From Capsulimonas corticalis (GTDB lineage: Bacteria > Armatimonadota > Armatimonadia > Armatimonadales > Capsulimonadaceae): DNA of 64,000 bases. The notes under the pieces are model-generated. The model saw nothing but the letters and a program-made list of their open reading frames with translations, made no database searches and was not told the DNA's origin. The stretch is taken from positions 4,712,001 through 4,776,000 of the forward strand of contig NZ_AP025739.1 of NCBI RefSeq assembly GCF_003574315.2, in the 5' to 3' direction. This document shows, piece after piece, positions 9,006-55,989 of this stretch. Positions within the stretch are counted from its first letter, which is position 1, and the number at the start of each line of letters is the position of its first letter. Made by a program: the position numbers and the translations under genes.

Positions 9006-9043
9006 CAATCAAAGCTCCGTACGCGTACGGGGCTTTTTGATTG
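9006..9043 (+). terminator. Terminator of the tRNA transcript
   Basis: CAATCAAAGCTCCGTAC folds onto GTACGGGGCTTTTTGATTG with a run of five T in the 3' arm. The hairpin overlaps the last codons of the convergent LysM gene. Confidence 0.8.
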
Positions 9044-9983
9044 TCATCATGTTCTGAACATCCCGATGAATCTCCGCGCCGTTGGCGTATGTCACAAGAT
9101 ATGTGACGGTGCGCAGGCCGGCTTCGCTTTCGGGGGCGTTCGCGATGATCTTCTCATCCGCCTGAAATTGTTTCTTCACTAATACTGTCAGCGGCAGTGG
9201 GTTCTTCTGGATGATCACGGTGTCGCCTGGCTTCAGCTTGTTGAGGTTGCGGCCGGCGTTCGCGATCAGAAAATCAGAGAAACTGATGTGGTTTTTGCGG
9301 GCGATCGCATACCCCGTTTCGTGTGGCTTGACCACGTAATCCTTGGAGGGCGGGGGCGTCCAGCTAAAAGTCGCCGCTTCCTCGGGAGTCGGCTTGATGC
9401 GCGCCGGGTCGACGGCTTTGCGCGCGACGAGCACGTTTTCCGAAAAGGTCGGATCGCCGATGACTTTCGCGTCGGGCGGCGCCTGCGCGAAGTGGTCCTT
9501 GATCAGGGTGAGCGTTTTGTTGGCGTCGTCTTCCGTCGGCAGCGCGACGGTCACACGCTTGTTGACCGAGATCGCGTATGCGTAGACGTGCAGCTTGAGA
9601 CGCGATGCGATCTTGTCCTGCGCGGTGTCGGGGCTGTCGATCGGCTCGCTGCCCGAGGTGCGCACGAACTGCACTTTTTGCAGGCGGACGATATCCTTCG
9701 CGCCGACGTCAAATCCGGCGGCTTTGCGCTCCGCCGCCGCCAGCACGGTGGTGGCGGTTTGCTGGTTTTGCAGCGTGACGATCGGCTTGCCGTCGAGCAG
9801 GATCGAGACCGGCTGCCCGAGATGGCGCTGATAGACAACGTAGCCGCCGCCCGCGAGCAGGGCGACCACGGCGACGCCGGCCAGCGCTTTGAACAAGCGC
9901 AGCTGACGCCGCAGCGCGGCGTCGGCCCTCAGGATCTCTTCGGTGGACTCTGGAATTTCCGCGTGGGGCGTTTGTTCGCTCAT
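9009..9983 (-). CDS. Membrane-anchored LysM and G5-like protein
   Basis: A 324-residue protein with a cytoplasmic N-terminus, one membrane helix (about 33-51) and an extracytoplasmic body. Residues 215-259 (DYVVKPHETGYAIARKNHI to LKPGDTVII) form a LysM-like peptidoglycan-binding repeat. Residues 262-316 (TVLVKKQFQADEKII, then TVTYLVTYANGAEIHRDV) look like a G5 domain, as found in YabE/resuscitation-type cell-wall proteins. No peptidase motif is present, so it is probably a wall-binding or adaptor protein. It lies downstream of the two S41 protease genes on the same strand, but a strong terminator separates them. Confidence 0.75.
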   Translation of the reverse strand: MSEQTPHAEIPESTEEILRADAALRRQLRLFKALAGVAVVALLAGGGYVVYQRHLGQPVSILLDGKPIVTLQNQQTATTVLAAAERKAAGFDVGAKDIVRLQKVQFVRTSGSEPIDSPDTAQDKIASRLKLHVYAYAISVNKRVTVALPTEDDANKTLTLIKDHFAQAPPDAKVIGDPTFSENVLVARKAVDPARIKPTPEEAATFSWTPPPSKDYVVKPHETGYAIARKNHISFSDFLIANAGRNLNKLKPGDTVIIQKNPLPLTVLVKKQFQADEKIIANAPESEAGLRTVTYLVTYANGAEIHRDVQNMMTIKKPRTRTEL

Positions 9984-10018: not shown

Positions 10019-10056
10019 CAAAAAACGCCCCGCAGTCGTGAGGGACTGCGGGGCGT
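10019..10056 (-). terminator. Terminator of the S41 protease operon
   Basis: Read on the minus strand, a perfect 12-bp stem (CGCCCCGCAGTC and its complement, 10027-10056) with a CTCAC-type loop is followed by a T-run. It lies just after the ctpA stop. Confidence 0.9.
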
Positions 10057-10072
10057 GGCGGTTATCGAGATT

Positions 10073-11407
10073 CTATTCCCAGGGGCGAGCGCTGGCGACT
10101 CGGGTGCGCTGAACGAGCTCCGTCAGAGCGCGCTGCAGCTGTGTGTCGTTCTTCAGATCGTAGAACGCTTCCGGGTGCTCGCGCAAGTAGGCGTACATCT
10201 TGCGCTGATCGTCGTCGGTATACGACACCGTGATGTTCGGCTCGATTCCCTTGTGGTTGATATCGTGCTTCATCGCCGTGTAGTAATGCTGAGTCGTGAT
10301 CGCCACGGCGCTGCCGTCGCGCAGCCCCATGATGGTCTGCACGAGGCCCTTGCCGAAGGTCTTCTCGCCGACCAGGGTGCCGGAGCCGGTGTCCTTGATG
10401 GCGCCGGAGACGATCTCGGAGGCGCTGGCGCTGTCGCCGTTCACCAGCACGACCAGCGGGTAATGCATGTGGTTTTTGTGCAGGCTCGGGATCACGTCCA
10501 GCGACTGCATCGGGCCGGTGCGGTCCTTGATCCAGACGATCGGGCCGGAGGGAACGAAACGGCTGGCGACGCGCTGGGCGATATCGAGCAGGCCGCCCGG
10601 ATTCTCGCGCAGGTCGAGGATCAGCCCTTTGACGCCCTGTCCCTGGAGATCCAGCAGCGCCTTGTCGATCTGGACGTCGCTTTCCTCGTTGAACACGCTC
10701 AGCGAGATATAGCCGATCTTGTTGACCGGATCGATGATGCTGTGCTGAACGACTTCCTGCTGGACCGTTTCGCGCGGCATGGTGATAACGACGGGCTGGG
10801 GGGCGTCCTTACGCAGCAGCGTCAAGGTTACCTTCGTGCCGGCCGCGCCTCGGATCAGCTTCACGACCGCTGTGTCCTTCATCTTCAGGGTCGACTTGCC
10901 GTCGACTTTCAGAATGATATCGCCCGCCATGACTTTGTAGCGCAGGGCGGGGCCGCCTTGCAGGACGCGCACGACATAGATCTGTTCGGCCTTGTTCGTG
11001 CCAAGCAGCGCGCCGATCCCCACGAACTCGCCATGGTTGTCGTCCACCATGTCCTGATACGCCTTGGGGTCCATGAAGCGCGTGTAGCGGTCCTTCAGGG
11101 ATCCCATCATGCCCCGGATGCCGTTGTAGGTCATCTGGGTCGGGTCGATATCCTTGCCGTAGTAGTTGGCGCGCAGTGTGGTGAGCACATCGGCGTAGGT
11201 CTGATAGGGCGTGTACTCGGCCGTTTGTCCCTGCGCGGCGGTCATATAGGCCGTTTCCAGGCGCTGCGGCACGAGCATGACGGCGGAGCGCAGGTCCTGC
11301 GCGCTGCGGACGCCGTGGAAGTCCCGGAAGCTGACGCCTCCCGCGAACGCGACGAACAGCAGCGACGCCACTCCCAGAGCCCTTCCGGTGATATTTTGAA
11401 TGGTCAT
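10073..11407 (-). CDS. ctpA: S41 carboxyl-terminal processing protease, catalytically intact
   Basis: A 444-residue exported protease of the CtpA/Prc type, which trims or degrades envelope proteins. It has an N-terminal membrane/signal segment (about 8-26) and a PDZ domain (about 125-205). The S41 core carries catalytic Ser328 in NGDSASASEI and Lys353 in KTFGKGLVQ. The GLILDLRENPGGLL strand is characteristic. It is encoded downstream of, and 45 nt after, a second S41-like gene that has lost these residues, which suggests the pair is co-expressed and may interact. The gene symbol is by family, since several Ctp paralogues are usual. Confidence 0.93.
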   Translation of the reverse strand: MTIQNITGRALGVASLLFVAFAGGVSFRDFHGVRSAQDLRSAVMLVPQRLETAYMTAAQGQTAEYTPYQTYADVLTTLRANYYGKDIDPTQMTYNGIRGMMGSLKDRYTRFMDPKAYQDMVDDNHGEFVGIGALLGTNKAEQIYVVRVLQGGPALRYKVMAGDIILKVDGKSTLKMKDTAVVKLIRGAAGTKVTLTLLRKDAPQPVVITMPRETVQQEVVQHSIIDPVNKIGYISLSVFNEESDVQIDKALLDLQGQGVKGLILDLRENPGGLLDIAQRVASRFVPSGPIVWIKDRTGPMQSLDVIPSLHKNHMHYPLVVLVNGDSASASEIVSGAIKDTGSGTLVGEKTFGKGLVQTIMGLRDGSAVAITTQHYYTAMKHDINHKGIEPNITVSYTDDDQRKMYAYLREHPEAFYDLKNDTQLQRALTELVQRTRVASARPWE

Positions 11408-11452
11408 TGTCGAAGTCCTAAATCCTGGTCTCTCTGTCCAAATCCCAAAGGG

Positions 11453-12916
11453 TCAAACGTGGGTCGGGGGCAGTCCCGCGACCTGTCCGGAAAGCAGGCC
11501 GATCGCCTGGTTCAGCGGCTCATCGGCCGCCGCGCCCGGCTGCGTGACCACATCGGGCTTGATCCCGACTTCGCTGAAGCTGGAGTGCGACGCGGTGAAC
11601 AGCTGTCCAACCGTCATCGTGAAGCCCGAGCCATCCCGCAGAGCGACCGGGGAGACGTCGGTGGCGTCGCCGAAGGTCTTCTCGCCGACCAGCTTGGCGC
11701 CGCTGCGCTGCAGAGTGTCCGCAAGCAGCTCCGCCGTATTGGCGGTGCCGTGGTTGACGAGGACCACGATCGGATAAGCGATGGTCTTGGATGACGTGAT
11801 CGCGATCGAGTTTTCCTTCTTGCCCTTGAGCTGGACGATACCCAGCGATTTGGCGTTGGTCAGCTTGCCCGCGATAGCCGCGCCGGCGTCTAGGAGGCCG
11901 CCCGGCGAGTTTCGCAGGTCGACGATCAGGCCCTTGGTGTCGGTCCCGAAACCGGTGAGCGCCGAGCCGAGCGAGTCCGCCGCCGTGTCCGTGAACTGCG
12001 TGATCTTGACGTAGCCGATGTTGCCCGGCAGCGACTTCGAAGCCACCGGCGTCACCTGCGTCGGCGTGGAGTTATCCAGCGTCAGCGTAATCGGTTTGTC
12101 CTGTCCGGAACGCGACACCGTCAGCACGAAGCTCTTGGAGTTGTCGCTGATCAGTTGGTTCTCGGCCAGCGTGAGCGTGAGGGCCGAGTCGATCTTCTTT
12201 TGAATATCTTTGGCTAGTTTGTTGAACGCGACCGGGTCGTTCTGCACGGCCTTCAAATCCTTGGCGGCGGCGGTGACCGGGTCATAGGTCGCGACCCATT
12301 TTCCGTTGATATCCGTGATCACGTCTCCGGGCAGCAGGCCGGCTTTTTCGGCGGGACTGCCGGGCAGCGGGGCGACGACGGTCAGGCGGTACTCGATATA
12401 TCCGGGGATTTCGTTTTCCTTGGTCGCTTTGGGATCGCCGTGCTGGAGAGATCGGATAAGAGTGGTCGCGCCGATTCCCTGATAGGATCCGCGAATCTCA
12501 TCCTTGAGCTCCTGCATCTGCGCGGGCTCCAAAAATCGGGACTGCGGGTCTCCGAGCGAAGCGACCATCGCGGAGGCGGCGCCGTGGGCGAGGATCGAAT
12601 CGTCCGGCACGCCTTCCACATAGTTGCGCTTCAGCTTCAGATAAACTTCCTGGAACGTGGCTCCGGGACCGTCCGCGCCGCCGGTGTCATCGGTGTCGAT
12701 ATCGAACCCGAGGGGCTTGGCCTTGGCGGCTCCGGAGGGAAAGGACACCAGTTGGAGGCTCTTGTTATGGGCGGAGTCCGCCTGAGCGACCTGATGGTGA
12801 AAGAGGTTGTGGCCAAGAGAGTGACCGGGACCGAGCTGCATCCCTAAGGCGAACGTACCTGCGGTCAGCGCGGTGAGCGCAGCGCCGGCGACTATTCCAC
12901 GTGTTGAAATCGTCAC
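11453..12916 (-). CDS. S41-like protein lacking the catalytic dyad (predicted pseudoprotease)
   Basis: A 487-residue exported protein with the full S41 layout: a signal or anchor segment (about 8-26), an N-terminal helical domain, PDZ (about 145-210, then a long insertion to 290) and a C-terminal S41 core. The core keeps GLIVDLRNSPGGLLD. Where active enzymes have GTASASE it reads GTANTAE, so the nucleophile position is Asn393. Where they have FGKG it reads FGDA, so the general-base Lys is Asp417. Both changes lie in otherwise conserved sequence and the frame is intact, so this looks like a maintained inactive paralogue. A GTG start at 12916 is assumed. Confidence 0.85.
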   Translation of the reverse strand: MTISTRGIVAGAALTALTAGTFALGMQLGPGHSLGHNLFHHQVAQADSAHNKSLQLVSFPSGAAKAKPLGFDIDTDDTGGADGPGATFQEVYLKLKRNYVEGVPDDSILAHGAASAMVASLGDPQSRFLEPAQMQELKDEIRGSYQGIGATTLIRSLQHGDPKATKENEIPGYIEYRLTVVAPLPGSPAEKAGLLPGDVITDINGKWVATYDPVTAAAKDLKAVQNDPVAFNKLAKDIQKKIDSALTLTLAENQLISDNSKSFVLTVSRSGQDKPITLTLDNSTPTQVTPVASKSLPGNIGYVKITQFTDTAADSLGSALTGFGTDTKGLIVDLRNSPGGLLDAGAAIAGKLTNAKSLGIVQLKGKKENSIAITSSKTIAYPIVVLVNHGTANTAELLADTLQRSGAKLVGEKTFGDATDVSPVALRDGSGFTMTVGQLFTASHSSFSEVGIKPDVVTQPGAAADEPLNQAIGLLSGQVAGLPPTHV

Positions 12917-13255
12917 TGGGAATCACGACCTTTCCGTCAATGAGGGCGGCGGTCCGCCAACGTAAGCGATACGGCATTATACCATGCCGGTCTCCTCTAT
13001 AATAACGGAAAAACCGCCCGCAATGTTCCTGAATGATCCTGCGTGCTTTAACAGGGGTTTCGGGTATGATACCACTAGAGTATCTCGCGAGATATCTTGC
13101 TCAATCCGCATACGCCGCGCACGTTCACCCGGATGTGCGTCAATTTCCAATACGGGTTTGAAAACAATCAACTTATGGACGATCGACAATCTTCCCAGAT
13201 TTTCTCGGGCGATTCGCCAGACAATGACTATGCGGAAGGCCGCGATGGTGGAAGT
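12917..13255. other. Intergenic region between divergent genes
   Basis: This 339-bp gap contains the minus-strand -10 box described separately and, on the plus strand, a TATAAT at 12998-13003 that could serve the R3H ATPase gene. No convincing -35 box goes with it. Part of the gap may be coding, because the ATPase frame is open back to 13097, with possible starts at 13097 (TTG) and 13175 (ATG). Confidence 0.5.
12976..12984 (-). promoter_or_regulatory. Extended -10 promoter of the S41 gene pair
   Basis: Minus-strand TG-g-TATAAT lies about 60 nt upstream of the GTG at 12916. GGAAAGG precedes that start codon as a possible ribosome-binding site. Confidence 0.6.
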
Positions 13256-14959
13256 ATGACAGTATTTGGTCAGAACGGACATGCAAATGGAGTGGCGGTT
13301 CCGCCGCTCTCGGCGAACCAGCTTCGAGTCACCGACAATTTGTCGCAGCTGCTGGAAGTCCTGCCGCCGCCTTTGCGCGCCGTGCTGGAGCACGAAGAGA
13401 CCGTCGAAGGCCTGATCGAAATCGTACTCGACCTGGGCCGAGACGCCGAGGCGCGCTTCTCCGACGGCCGCGTGGTCTGGCTGCGTGAAGGCATCCCGGT
13501 CACGAATGAGGATATCGCCTTCGTGACGGCGCGCGTCGGCGCCTTCGGCAAGGACAACCGCGCCGGTATCGAGCGCACGCTGCACCGCATTTCGGCGATC
13601 CGCAATCGTCAGGGCAAGATCATCGGTCTGACCTGCCGCATCGGACGCGCCGTCTTCGGCACGATCGATATCATCCGCGATATCGTGGAGTCCGGCAAGA
13701 GCATCCTGATGCTCGGACGGCCCGGACGCGGCAAGACGACCAAGCTGCGCGAAGTCGCCCGCGTGCTGTCCGATGAGTTCGGCAAGCGCGTTATTATCGT
13801 CGATACCTCGAACGAGATCGCCGGCGACGGCGATATTCCGCATCCGGCCATCGGCCGGGCGCGTCGCATGCAGGTGCCGACGCCCGAAGATCAGCACGGC
13901 GTCATGATTGAAGCCGTCGAGAACCACATGCCGGAAGTCGTCGTGATCGACGAGATCGGCGTGGAGCAAGAGGCGTTCGCCGCCCGCACCATCGCCGAGC
14001 GCGGCGTTCAGCTCATCGGTACGGCGCACGGCAACTCGCTGGAAAACCTGCTCATGAACCCGACGCTTTCGGACATGGTCGGCGGAATCCAGGCGGTCAC
14101 GCTGTCCGACGAAGAAGCCAAGAAGCGCGGCACGCAGAAGACGGTCCTGGAGCGCAAATCGCCGCCGACATTCGATGTGATCATCGAGATCATGGAAGTC
14201 GACAAGCTCGCGATCCATCACGACGTCATGCGCACGGTCGATAAGATGCTGCGCGGCGGACAGCCGCGCCCCGAGATCCGCGTGCGCAACGCCAACGGCC
14301 AGGTGGACATCATCCAGAAGTCCGACATCGAGGCGCAGCGCGAACCGGTCGAGCGGACAGGTTCGCTGTTCGACGACGGCGGTCACGGGCATAATGGCGG
14401 GGGCGGCGTGCGTGAAGGCTCGCGGATCGCGCCGCCGGCCGCCGACGGCGGACCGGCCGCGCCGACGCTCAGCAATGGGAAACCGCTGCCGGCGACGGTC
14501 ACGATCTTCCCGTACGGCGTCAGCCGCAGCCGCCTGGAGCGGGCGATCCGCACCCTGCGCGTCCCGGCCTTTATCGGCAACAACGTCAAAGAGGGCGATG
14601 TGATCATCGCCTTGAAGGCGAATTACCGCAAGGAGCCGGCGAAGCTGCAAGAGGGGATCAGCCGCAATATCCCAACGTACGTGATCAAGAGCAACACATA
14701 CGTTCAAATCGAAAACGTGCTGCGCGAGATCTTCCGGATGCCCATCGAAATCTCCGAAGAGGACATGGCGGTGCAGCTCGCCGAAGAAGCGATCGAAGAG
14801 ATCATCAACGATCCGAGCGGCGGCCTGAACTCGCTGGAGTTAGCTCCGCAAAGCTCATTCCTGCGGCGCCTTCAGCACCAAACGGCCGAGAACTACAAGA
14901 TGCTCTCCGAGAGCATCGGCGCGGAACCGAACCGACGCGTTCGGATCAGCAGGCCATAA
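13256..14959 (+). CDS. R3H domain-containing AAA ATPase (Ycf45/SpoIIIAA-like)
   Basis: About 567 residues. The middle third is a P-loop ATPase of the Ycf45/SpoIIIAA type, with Walker [26 protein letters not shown], Walker B VVVIDEIG and [11 protein letters not shown]. The [18 protein letters not shown] and [13 protein letters not shown] stretches are nearly invariant in the cyanobacterial family. After a Gly/Pro-rich linker the C-terminus ends in an R3H-like single-stranded nucleic-acid-binding motif ([24 protein letters not shown]). Its biological role is not established. I chose the ATG at 13256 because GGTGGAAGT precedes it and the family N-terminus starts near here; ATG 13175 and TTG 13097 remain possible. 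The tmk gene follows after 10 nt. Confidence 0.88.
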
Positions 14960-14969
14960 GGACGAGTCG

Positions 14970-15590
14970 ATGTCGTTGTTCGTGACATTCGAAGGCGTCG
15001 AGGGCGCCGGTAAGACGACGCAGATCGTCCGCCTCGCCACCCGTCTGCGCTCGCAGGGCCGCCAGGATATCCTGGTGACCCGCGAGCCGGGCGACGGCCC
15101 GCTTTGCCGTGAACTGCGGCAATTGGTTTTGGATCCGCCCGTCGGCGTCTCTGTCGACGAGCGGGCCGAGCTTTTTATCATGCTCGCGGACCGCAGCCAG
15201 CACGTCGCGCACACCGTTCGGCCTCATCTGGACAACGGCGGCGTGGTGCTCTGCGACCGCTATATCGATTCCAGCATGGCCTACCAGGGTTTTGGGCGCG
15301 GACTCGATCGCGACGCTGTCGCGTCGATGAACGCTTTCGCCACCGGGGGGCTGCTGCCGCATCGGACGCTGCTGCTGGATGTCGATCCCGGCGTGGGCCT
15401 CACCCGGCAAACCAACCGCACGCGGATGGAAGCCGAGGCGATCGCCTTCCACGCCAAGATCCGCGAGGGATTTTTGCAAATGGCCGCCGCCGAGCCCGGC
15501 CGGTTTCGCATCATCGATGCGTCCCTGCCTCCGGACAATGTCCATGATTTGGTCTGGGAGGCAGTCCAAGATTTACTGGACGACGAATGA
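14970..15590 (+). CDS. tmk: Thymidylate kinase
   Basis: A 206-residue dTMP kinase of normal length. It has the P-loop EGVEGAGKTT (about 9-18), TREPG, the CDRYIDSSMAYQG motif and a LID region rich in Arg (RQTNRTRMEAE). It phosphorylates dTMP to dTDP for DNA synthesis. It overlaps the downstream c-di-AMP receptor gene as ATGA. The order tmk, darA/yaaQ, holB is the same as in Bacillus, where yaaR also intervenes. Confidence 0.96.
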   Translation: MSLFVTFEGVEGAGKTTQIVRLATRLRSQGRQDILVTREPGDGPLCRELRQLVLDPPVGVSVDERAELFIMLADRSQHVAHTVRPHLDNGGVVLCDRYIDSSMAYQGFGRGLDRDAVASMNAFATGGLLPHRTLLLDVDPGVGLTRQTNRTRMEAEAIAFHAKIREGFLQMAAAEPGRFRIIDASLPPDNVHDLVWEAVQDLLDDE

Positions 15591-15931
15591 AACTGGTTGT
15601 CGCCATTATTCGCGAGCGGGAAAAGCAGCGGCTGCACGATCTCCTCATGGACGAGGGGATCACTTATACGAAGATCGGCAGCACCGGCGGATTTTTGCGC
15701 CAGGGCAACTGCACGCTGCTGATCGGCGCGCAGGACGCCGCCGTGGAGCGCGTTTTGGAGTTGATCCGTTCGGCGTGCAAGTCCGAGGAACGCTTTGTCA
15801 ACGTGGCGAGTTTCGGCGAGCAGGGAGTTCTTTCCGGAGCGATGGCGGCGCTGCATCCCCAGGCGGTTTCGGTTGAGTCCGGCGGCGCCGTCGCCTTTGT
15901 TCTGGATGTGGACAGCTTCCACAAATTCTAA
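15587..15931 (+). CDS. PII-like cyclic-di-AMP receptor, DarA/YaaQ family
   Basis: A 114-residue protein matching the YaaQ/DarA family. It starts with MKLVVAIIREREKQRL, has the glycine-rich T-loop region (KIGSTGGFLRQGNCTLLIG) and ends in GGAVAFVLDVDSFHKF. Family members form trimers that bind c-di-AMP. The downstream target is not settled. Translational coupling to tmk (ATGA) and the following holB gene reproduces a widely conserved gene order. No diadenylate cyclase is visible in this window. Confidence 0.92.
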   Translation: MKLVVAIIREREKQRLHDLLMDEGITYTKIGSTGGFLRQGNCTLLIGAQDAAVERVLELIRSACKSEERFVNVASFGEQGVLSGAMAALHPQAVSVESGGAVAFVLDVDSFHKF

Positions 15932-15949
15932 CGGTTCGTATTCCACTCC

Positions 15950-17038
15950 ATGCTTGAAGAAATTGTCGGGCAGGCCAACGCGGTCGCCACGCTGGAGCAC
16001 GCGTTCCCGCAAGGCCGGTTGACCGGCTCCTATTTATTTGTCGGTCCGGACGGCGTCGGCAAAACGACGACGGCGCAGCTATTCGCCGCCCAGCTCTGCG
16101 GCGCGACGGCTCCGGATGACTCCGTCACGCGGCGCGTCTTCGCGGGGACTCATCCCGATGTCCGCATGGTGGAGCCGGCGGGGAAATCCAACACCATCCA
16201 TGTGGCGCAGCTCTGGCCGCGCTCGGAAAGCAAAGATTACCCGAGCGAGCGCGCCATGCTGCGCGATCTGCATTTCGAGCCGATGGCCGGCCCCAAGCGC
16301 ATCTTCATCATCAAGGAAGCCGAGGGATTGCGCGGCGGCAATGAAGCCTCCGCGAACAGCATTCTGAAGTCTTTGGAAGAGCCGCCCGCCTACGCGCACT
16401 TTATCTTGACCGCAGCGTCCACGGCGGGGCTACTTCCGACGATAGTTTCCCGCTGCCAGGTGATCCATTTCGGGCTGCTGCCGGCGGGCGAGATCGAGAC
16501 GATCCTGATCGCGCGCCACGGCGCGGATCCCGATCAGGCGCGCTTTCTCGCGGCGTACTGCGAAGGGCGGATCGGCCGCGCGATCTCTCTGCTGCGTTCG
16601 CCGGATCTGCTGGCGGGCCGCGATGAACTGCTCGATCTCGCGGACAGGGCGCTGCGCGCGCCGCAGATCGCCAGTTTCAAACTGGCGGAGGAATTTCGTA
16701 AGCTAGCGCCCAAGCTTAAAGCGGACAGCGGAGACGCCGCCGCCGATGAAAAAGAACGCGGCGCCCGGGAGCCGGTCCTGAACGCGCTGAGCATGCTCGC
16801 CGTGTATTTCCGCGATTTGACGGCGCTGCGCGTGATGGGGCCATCCAAAGCCGTCATTATCAACGCCGACCGCGCGGAGCATCTGAAGAAAGGCGCGCCT
16901 CTTTATTCCGAGGAAGCGCTGGTGAAGGCGCTGTCGCTGATCTTCGCGATCCGCCAAGGGATCGAGCGCAACGCCAACGCGCAGCTCGCCACGGAACTGC
17001 TGTTCGCGGAGCTCGCCGCGCTGCGGACGGCTCGGTGA
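15950..17038 (+). CDS. holB: DNA polymerase III delta' subunit
   Basis: A 362-residue clamp-loader subunit. It starts MLEEIVGQANAVATLEHAF and has a P-loop (GPDGVGKTTTAQLFA, about 29-43), a sensor-type NSILKSLEEPPAYAHFILT segment and VSRCQVIHF. The zinc-binding Cys4 module usually found after the P-loop helix in DnaX-like and many delta' proteins is absent. Only one Cys remains there, followed directly by HPDVRMVEPAG. The family function is loading the beta clamp together with DnaX and HolA. Confidence 0.92.
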   Translation: MLEEIVGQANAVATLEHAFPQGRLTGSYLFVGPDGVGKTTTAQLFAAQLCGATAPDDSVTRRVFAGTHPDVRMVEPAGKSNTIHVAQLWPRSESKDYPSERAMLRDLHFEPMAGPKRIFIIKEAEGLRGGNEASANSILKSLEEPPAYAHFILTAASTAGLLPTIVSRCQVIHFGLLPAGEIETILIARHGADPDQARFLAAYCEGRIGRAISLLRSPDLLAGRDELLDLADRALRAPQIASFKLAEEFRKLAPKLKADSGDAAADEKERGAREPVLNALSMLAVYFRDLTALRVMGPSKAVIINADRAEHLKKGAPLYSEEALVKALSLIFAIRQGIERNANAQLATELLFAELAALRTAR

Positions 17039-50721: not shown

Positions 50722-52240
<1,519 letters not shown>

Positions 52241-52395
52241 TGAGCTGCTGCTAGTCTAAGCAAAGACGTTCAGAATACGAAAGTATAATGAACTGGCAGG
52301 CTTAGCGAAGCGCGCTCTATCAGGTCGATCTATCCCTTGAGAGAGCAGATATCTAGTATATCTCTCTCGAATGACTCCTTATTCGTCACGAAAAG

Positions 52396-52433
52396 GTTGA
52401 CACGATTTCCTATTTAGTTTTCAATGTGCATCG
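52396..52433 (+). other. 3' strand of the 16S processing stem
   Basis: Reverse complement of the segment at 50413-50451 with about four differences. Confidence 0.85.
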
Positions 52434-52523
52434 TTTTTTCTTTCACAAGAGAAGACGATACGGTCGTGAGCCATCATCGAATGGGGCGACTGCACAGTGA
52501 TCGATCCAAAGTGATCGGTCATT

Positions 52524-52554
52524 CTTCTGTTCTTTGACAACTTCATATTGCGCG
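52524..52554 (+). other. 5' strand of the 23S processing stem
   Basis: These 31 nt are complementary to 55723-55753 with one mismatch, forming a long RNase III-type stem around pre-23S RNA. Confidence 0.9.
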
Positions 52555-52704
52555 TGATACGTTTTCAAACTGCGTATCACGAATACACATGACATGTGCA
52601 AGAGCATGTTGTGTGTGGGTAAATAGCGTACAATTTTGCTGAGTGGCTATGACTTTGATTTATCATTGTGCATAGTACTCTTAGCGAACACTTTGTGTTT
52701 ATTT

Positions 52705-55638
<2,934 letters not shown>

Positions 55639-55722
55639 AAATAAACTACAATAAAACTTTGTAGATATAAACTACAAAATAAAACACAAATGCAATCATA
55701 AAAGATTAGTACGTGAATTTAC

Positions 55723-55753
55723 CGCGCAATATGAAGTTGTCTAAGAACAGAAG
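55723..55753 (+). other. 3' strand of the 23S processing stem
   Basis: Complement of 52524-52554 with a single mismatch. Confidence 0.9.
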
Positions 55754-55792
55754 ACATACAATTTGAGGCTGAAACAACAGCTTCTACAGATT

Positions 55793-55907
<115 letters not shown>

Positions 55908-55989
55908 TTAAACATCAATCACGAAAGTGATGACAATCAATCACGAACAGTGATGAAACAGAAGCATCCAAAAGATGTGAACCAGAAAC

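Follow-up and report, generated by a model that had tools for sequence, protein, structure and literature searches.

The window (the whole 64,000-nucleotide stretch of Capsulimonas corticalis DNA that was analysed) carries two intact S41 open reading frames (ORFs), arranged head to tail on the minus strand with the upstream gene at 11453–12916 followed by the downstream gene at 10073–11407. Beyond these two genes, no PF03572 matches were found in the single-contig genome of 7,645,051 bases. The locus comprises the following features:

11453..12916, minus strand: upstream gene for a predicted S41/PDZ pseudoprotease (ORF of 487 aa, GTG start; N-terminal membrane or signal helix)
12149..12300, minus strand: PDZ insertion region of the upstream protein, about residues 206–255 (from alignment and model)
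11738..11740, minus strand: Asn393 codon AAT, replacing the catalytic Ser (coordinates counted from the first base of the ORF, 12916)
11666..11668, minus strand: Asp417 codon GAC, replacing the catalytic Lys (coordinates likewise counted from 12916)
11408..11452, minus strand: intergenic gap of 45 nt, from the upstream stop to the downstream ATG
10073..11407, minus strand: downstream gene for a CtpA-type C-terminal processing protease (ORF of 444 aa, ATG start; Ser328-Lys353-Gln357)
10025..10056, minus strand: terminator-like hairpin with a 13-bp stem and a T run, directly after ctpA (consensus match only)
9009..9983, minus strand: LysM-G5 gene, next after ctpA (PF01476 and PF07501)

Both proteins exceeded the cut-off of 24 bits for PF03572 (Pfam), the downstream protein with 175 bits and the upstream protein with 112 bits. 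An earlier note on this DNA had described the frame and core of the upstream gene as intact, and the ORF is indeed complete. Both proteins also matched PDZ models above cut-off (for the upstream protein PDZ_6, with 37 bits against a cut-off of 27), and in the upstream protein the PDZ domain lies between the N-terminal helices and the S41 core. Under TIGR00225 (NCBIfam; cut-off 218.6) the downstream protein passed with 299 bits, whereas the upstream protein remained below with 179.8 bits. A MAG contig of Capsulimonas sp. holds the gene most similar to the upstream one (79% identity).

Because neither promoter-like nor terminator-like sites were found in the 45-nt gap and a strong terminator-like hairpin follows ctpA, the simplest reading is that the upstream gene and ctpA would be expressed from one two-gene transcript. 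The single operon proposed in the earlier note is thus apparently present, judging from a consensus match. The LysM-G5 gene, of which the product probably binds peptidoglycan, sits past this hairpin and therefore perhaps forms a separate unit.

Alignment placed S328, K353 and Q357 of the downstream protein in the same columns as N393, D417 and V421 of the upstream protein. The residue numbers given earlier for the catalytic dyad, Ser328 (SASASE) and Lys353 (FGKG) downstream versus Asn393 (GTANTAE) and Asp417 (FGDA) upstream, proved exact, and the replacement of the third catalytic residue (Val421 for Gln357) can now be added to them. Comparison with the PDB by phmmer, along the lines of the structural check that the earlier note had suggested, agreed with this residue equivalence, as GTA-N393-TAE paired with GTA-S-ASE of the photosystem II D1 protease (1fc6) and D417 paired with the Lys in TFGKG of the same structure. 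Another alignment with an intact dyad in the upstream protein, which would have spoken against the earlier note, was looked for and rejected, since there is no Ser or Lys nearby to use. By sequence, the upstream protein would thus be a non-peptidase homologue.

The pair recurs far beyond this genome. Tandem S41 pairs were present in many families of the phylum Armatimonadota among the first 61 genomes, and a profile made from 41 upstream copies was run on 201 Armatimonadota genomes and further loci were fetched, giving 123 tandem pairs in all, from 21 family codes (a hand count from tables; the pairs come from related genomes and are not independent events). Ser and Lys occurred together in 0 of the 126 scorable upstream copies, so that no relative with the dyad in its upstream copy came to light, whereas all 121 scorable downstream copies carried Ser-Lys-Gln, a contrast beyond chance. 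All 122 oriented pairs lay on the same strand with the inactive gene first, and in 111 of these the downstream open frame started at or before the upstream stop. Other Armatimonadota families have a single S41 copy at the locus, which was always Ser-Lys-Gln. Four genomes that seemingly lacked the family though their relatives have it (G105, G168, G170 and G172) yielded adjacent weak or split matches on re-search, and therefore probably have the pair; re-search of G138 and G162 gave none.

In a quick tree from which the Ser and Lys columns had been masked, the 41 upstream copies sampled first formed one clade (SH-aLRT 96), apart from all active copies, and the downstream partners grouped with active CTPs. 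This topology fits one main loss, after which the freed positions would have changed further.

Retained in the inactive clade are the N-terminal helices, two PDZ motifs (GxGIG and PAxxAGLxxGD) and the DLR core motif. PAxxAGLxxGD is 90–100% conserved in this clade, and much of the remaining core is looser than in the partners. An insertion of 25–56 residues in the PDZ domain was present in 38 of the 41 inactive copies and in none of the 39 active ones, the stretch after the PDZ strand measuring 39–70 residues in the former 38 versus 14–25 residues in the active copies (exactly 14 in 33 of 39). In the upstream protein of the window, 50 residues separate the flanking aligned positions against 14 in its active partner, and the AlphaFold2 model predicts this insertion to be helical (helices 213–216, 218–223 and 228–244). 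The three inactive copies without the insertion (L083:1-1254, L097:6848-8305 and L110:6093-7610) all belong to family f3, have Arg or Leu replacing Asp, and may represent an early or reverted form of the subfamily. The C-terminal tail of the inactive copies is shorter than that of the partners (median of 28 versus 50.5 residues), and with so short a tail the upstream protein may fail to make the C-terminal contacts seen in the CtpA hexamer. CtpA itself ends in a conserved short C-terminal end (...PW or ...PWE) in the window and at loci L066, L068, L069 and L070.

AlphaFold2 models of the two proteins were built alike, from 41 alignment rows for the inactive protein and 39 for its partner, and reached a mean pLDDT of 83.8 and 87.8, respectively. 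The upstream fold matched CtpA and CtpB with Z scores of 28–33. The inactive model scored higher with resting CtpB (4c2e, Z 31.7) than with active CtpB (4c2c, Z 27.9), while the partner model scored higher with active 4c2c (Z 35.2), peptide-bound 4c2g (Z 35.2) and 8sxg_A (Z 37.6) than with resting 4c2e (Z 25.3). Foldseek agreed with this split, the target-normalised TM to the all-resting HpCtpA 9ksp being 0.66–0.73 for the inactive model and 0.54–0.58 for the partner. The best chains were 9jr1_A and 8sxe_B for the inactive model and 9jr1_B and 8sxe_A for the partner model, the two thus preferring different chains of the same assemblies; the argument is carried by the entries with a labelled state, 4c2c, 4c2g, 4c2e and 9ksp. 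These comparisons are suggestive of two proteins that would fit opposite protomers of the published asymmetric CtpA dimers, the upstream one resting and the downstream one active, with one prediction per protein from about 40 sequences each and a choice of state by AlphaFold2 that can be arbitrary. The ordered part of the upstream model is wholly S41/PDZ without a TPR fold, and no TPR family was found among the Pfam matches.

In Pseudomonas aeruginosa CtpA, one protomer per dimer is active (PMC11021448), and in the asymmetric dimers of Helicobacter pylori CtpA one subunit is active while the other rests (PMC12749690). P. aeruginosa CtpA-LbcA (8sxe–8sxh) resembles the present case in that CtpA is of the same CTP type (Z 36–38 with the downstream model) and needs a partner, as the downstream protein might as well; however, LbcA is a helical TPR lipoprotein and no S41 homologue, unlike the upstream protein, and both CtpA protomers derive from one gene. 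The two proteins of the window appear each to match one of the states of H. pylori CtpA (9jr1, 9ku3 and 9ksp), but that protease is homomeric and adaptor-independent, its asymmetry being conformational and not genetic. Bacillus subtilis CtpB (4c2c–4c2h) shares the order of N-terminal helices, PDZ and core, and has resting and active states under PDZ control, but is a one-gene homodimer with catalytic residues in both subunits.

Among other proteases with partners and other pseudoproteases, NlpI is a TPR lipoprotein, MamO has an HtrA/trypsin-like fold and CspC a subtilisin-like fold. Escherichia coli Prc-NlpI is a partner-controlled tail-specific protease with peptidoglycan hydrolases among its targets (as cited in PMC12749690), although Prc belongs to the CTP-1 subfamily and NlpI is not S41. 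MamO of magnetotactic bacteria promotes proteolysis by its active relative MamE (PMC4794232), and thereby resembles the present pair as a bacterial pseudoprotease with an active relative, but the MamO-MamE system is magnetosome-specific and evolved separately. CspC of Clostridioides difficile is likewise a bacterial pseudoprotease with a regulatory role (PMC6636752), albeit in spore germination. Pseudoproteases and CTP partners are thus already known, whereas searches of the open-access literature found no earlier description of a tandem active/inactive CTP pair, let alone of one that extends across much of a phylum.

Taken together, we consider it probable (roughly 0.6) that the upstream protein is a non-catalytic partner subunit of CtpA, the product of the next gene. 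An ancient gene duplication in Armatimonadota would have fixed the asymmetry of CtpA genetically, with the upstream gene yielding an exported, non-catalytic protein of the CTP (S41A) fold that would occupy the resting seat of the assembly. In most families the helical insertion enlarges the PDZ domain of this inactive copy, a domain that might serve to sense substrates, to deliver them or to gate the partner. Cleavage, probably of peptidoglycan hydrolases or other proteins of the envelope, would be left to CtpA. That the upstream protein serves more specifically as the permanent resting protomer of the CtpA assembly is a tentative proposal, for which the odds are a little short of even. Slightly more tentative still is a heteromer on the scale of the phylum, in which one half of the asymmetric CtpA dimer would have lost its activity for good and become a subunit that senses substrates. 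We infer the physical partnership, which of the two proteins would control the other, and the substrates; the earlier note's idea that the inactive copy acts on the active one as a regulator, adaptor or scaffold is favoured by the constant gene order and by the two conformations that the models predict. Since several Armatimonadota families have one active CtpA alone, the partner would not be universally needed. This, the shorter C-terminal tail of the upstream protein and the greater degeneration of the active site in family f14 weigh against the partner reading.

If this reading is correct, the one-active-protomer state that is conformational in other CtpA proteins would have been made permanent as an encoded active/inactive pair, and a CTP would be under the control of an inactive relative, in contrast to the partners LbcA and NlpI, which are unrelated to the proteases they serve. 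The pair would then amount to a natural experiment in which duplication made a division of labour permanent, so that the features of the regulatory and the catalytic half become separable.

The main rival reading, which we regard as unlikely but deserving of real weight, is that the upstream protein works independently in the envelope, as a PDZ-based binding protein, a chaperone or a ligand carrier, forms no complex with CtpA and shares its operon only through acting in the same process. Such a role would suit the conservation of PDZ and fold but not of the catalytic site, and the S41 fold is indeed used by the annotated retinol-binding protein RBP3 (interphotoreceptor retinoid-binding protein), a match in both sequence and fold; moreover, the partnership with CtpA is one that we infer. 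RBP3 is an animal protein that is unpaired with an active S41 protease. Against an independent binder stand the invariant gene order (122/122 pairs, 21 family codes), the fit of the two models to complementary states of one assembly, and the retention of N-terminal helices matching the dimerisation region.

The residues at the former active site bear on whether the upstream protein could still be an enzyme, working by an altered mechanism through different residues. At the Ser position, the 126 upstream copies carried Gly (59), Asn (32), Ser (13), Arg (12), Asp (6), Lys (3) or Ala (1), and at the Lys position Asp (83), Ser (9), Pro (6), Asn (5), Glu (5) or others (18), while Gln was kept in half of the copies. 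The persistence of Ser in 13/126 and of Gln in half, together with the common Asp at the Lys position, might hint at such a mechanism, but the Ser position varies freely, and conservation across the inactive clade revealed no new invariant nucleophile or base. The invariant residues (Gly, D333, L334 and T391) and the near-invariant ones (R335 and E396) either recur in the active copies or are conservatively matched there (at 391, Thr for Ser), which makes a changed mechanism improbable. Two upstream copies of family f9 (L196:3884-5284 and L213:3765-5240) have Lys at the Lys position with Gly at the Ser position, a Lys that may be either retained or regained. The inactive copies of the large family f14 are more degenerate at the active site, so some of these may have drifted further in function.

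Among close relatives, dN/dS was 0.04–0.15 for the upstream and 0.03–0.11 for the downstream genes (one genome pair in the set being without usable dS), indicating that the upstream copy is under clear purifying selection, and it evolves somewhat faster than its partner (mean p-distance of 0.69 versus 0.59). Although this greater distance might suggest a decaying duplicate or an assembly artefact without function, that scenario is refuted for the clade as a whole by the open frames in all scored copies, the low dN/dS and the spread of one clade over 21 family codes and many independent assemblies, and retains a negligible probability. The decay that would have contradicted the earlier note was thus not seen, and its claim of one active-type copy and one inactive-type copy, the latter kept by selection, is supported. 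The upstream protein combines a protease fold, a degenerate active site and purifying selection, by which it would qualify as a pseudoprotease. Both the loss of catalytic residues and the conservation of the upstream copy are well supported, and the retention of an intact sister protein that has lost these residues, next to the cell-envelope protease CtpA, is more suggestive of an inbuilt regulatory partner than of a duplicate in decay. The pairwise distances of the upstream and downstream families correlate (r 0.90), but shared phylogeny alone would give that, and this correlation was therefore set aside as evidence.

The gene neighbourhood points to a role in peptidoglycan turnover, a process in which bacterial CTPs are known to act (PMC11021448, PMC12749690). 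Ahead of the pair, several families have ftsX and a gene for an M23 protein that contains a PcsB coiled-coil domain (PcsB/EnvC-like; 8 and 9 of the 123 pairs, respectively). The pair is followed by a polysaccharide deacetylase gene in 26/123 and by a LysM-G5 gene in 9/123, the window included, while most of the 123 pairs have other neighbours. Several single-copy families have the M23 gene directly before ctpA, so that, by comparison, it is the inactive gene that separates M23 from ctpA where M23 precedes the pair.

Outside the phylum, the S41 homologues of Acidobacteria at L054, L057, L059, L060, L062 and L063 have Gly-Asp-Gln (in one case Gly-Asp-Leu) in place of the catalytic residues. The stretches fetched around them, of up to 4 kb on each side, yielded no second S41 gene. 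As these homologues were placed elsewhere in the tree, the idea that their loss was the same event as that in Armatimonadota was rejected, and the separate clade and the lack of a paired S41 gene in the fetched stretches indicate an independent case with the same Lys-to-Asp change. In seven genomes reached via other-phylum loci (a small sample), the best match to the family scored 189 bits and covered the core only, against at least 228 bits, mostly over the full length, for nearly all pair-bearing Armatimonadota outside f3.

Elsewhere in the window, a divergent cluster at 13097–17038 begins with a gene for a SpoIIIAA-like ATPase with an R3H domain, followed by genes that by eye resemble those for tmk, a DarA-like small protein and the DNA polymerase III delta' subunit. 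A complete rRNA operon (16S, 23S and 5S; Rfam) at 50722–55908 accounts for a long stretch without large ORFs.
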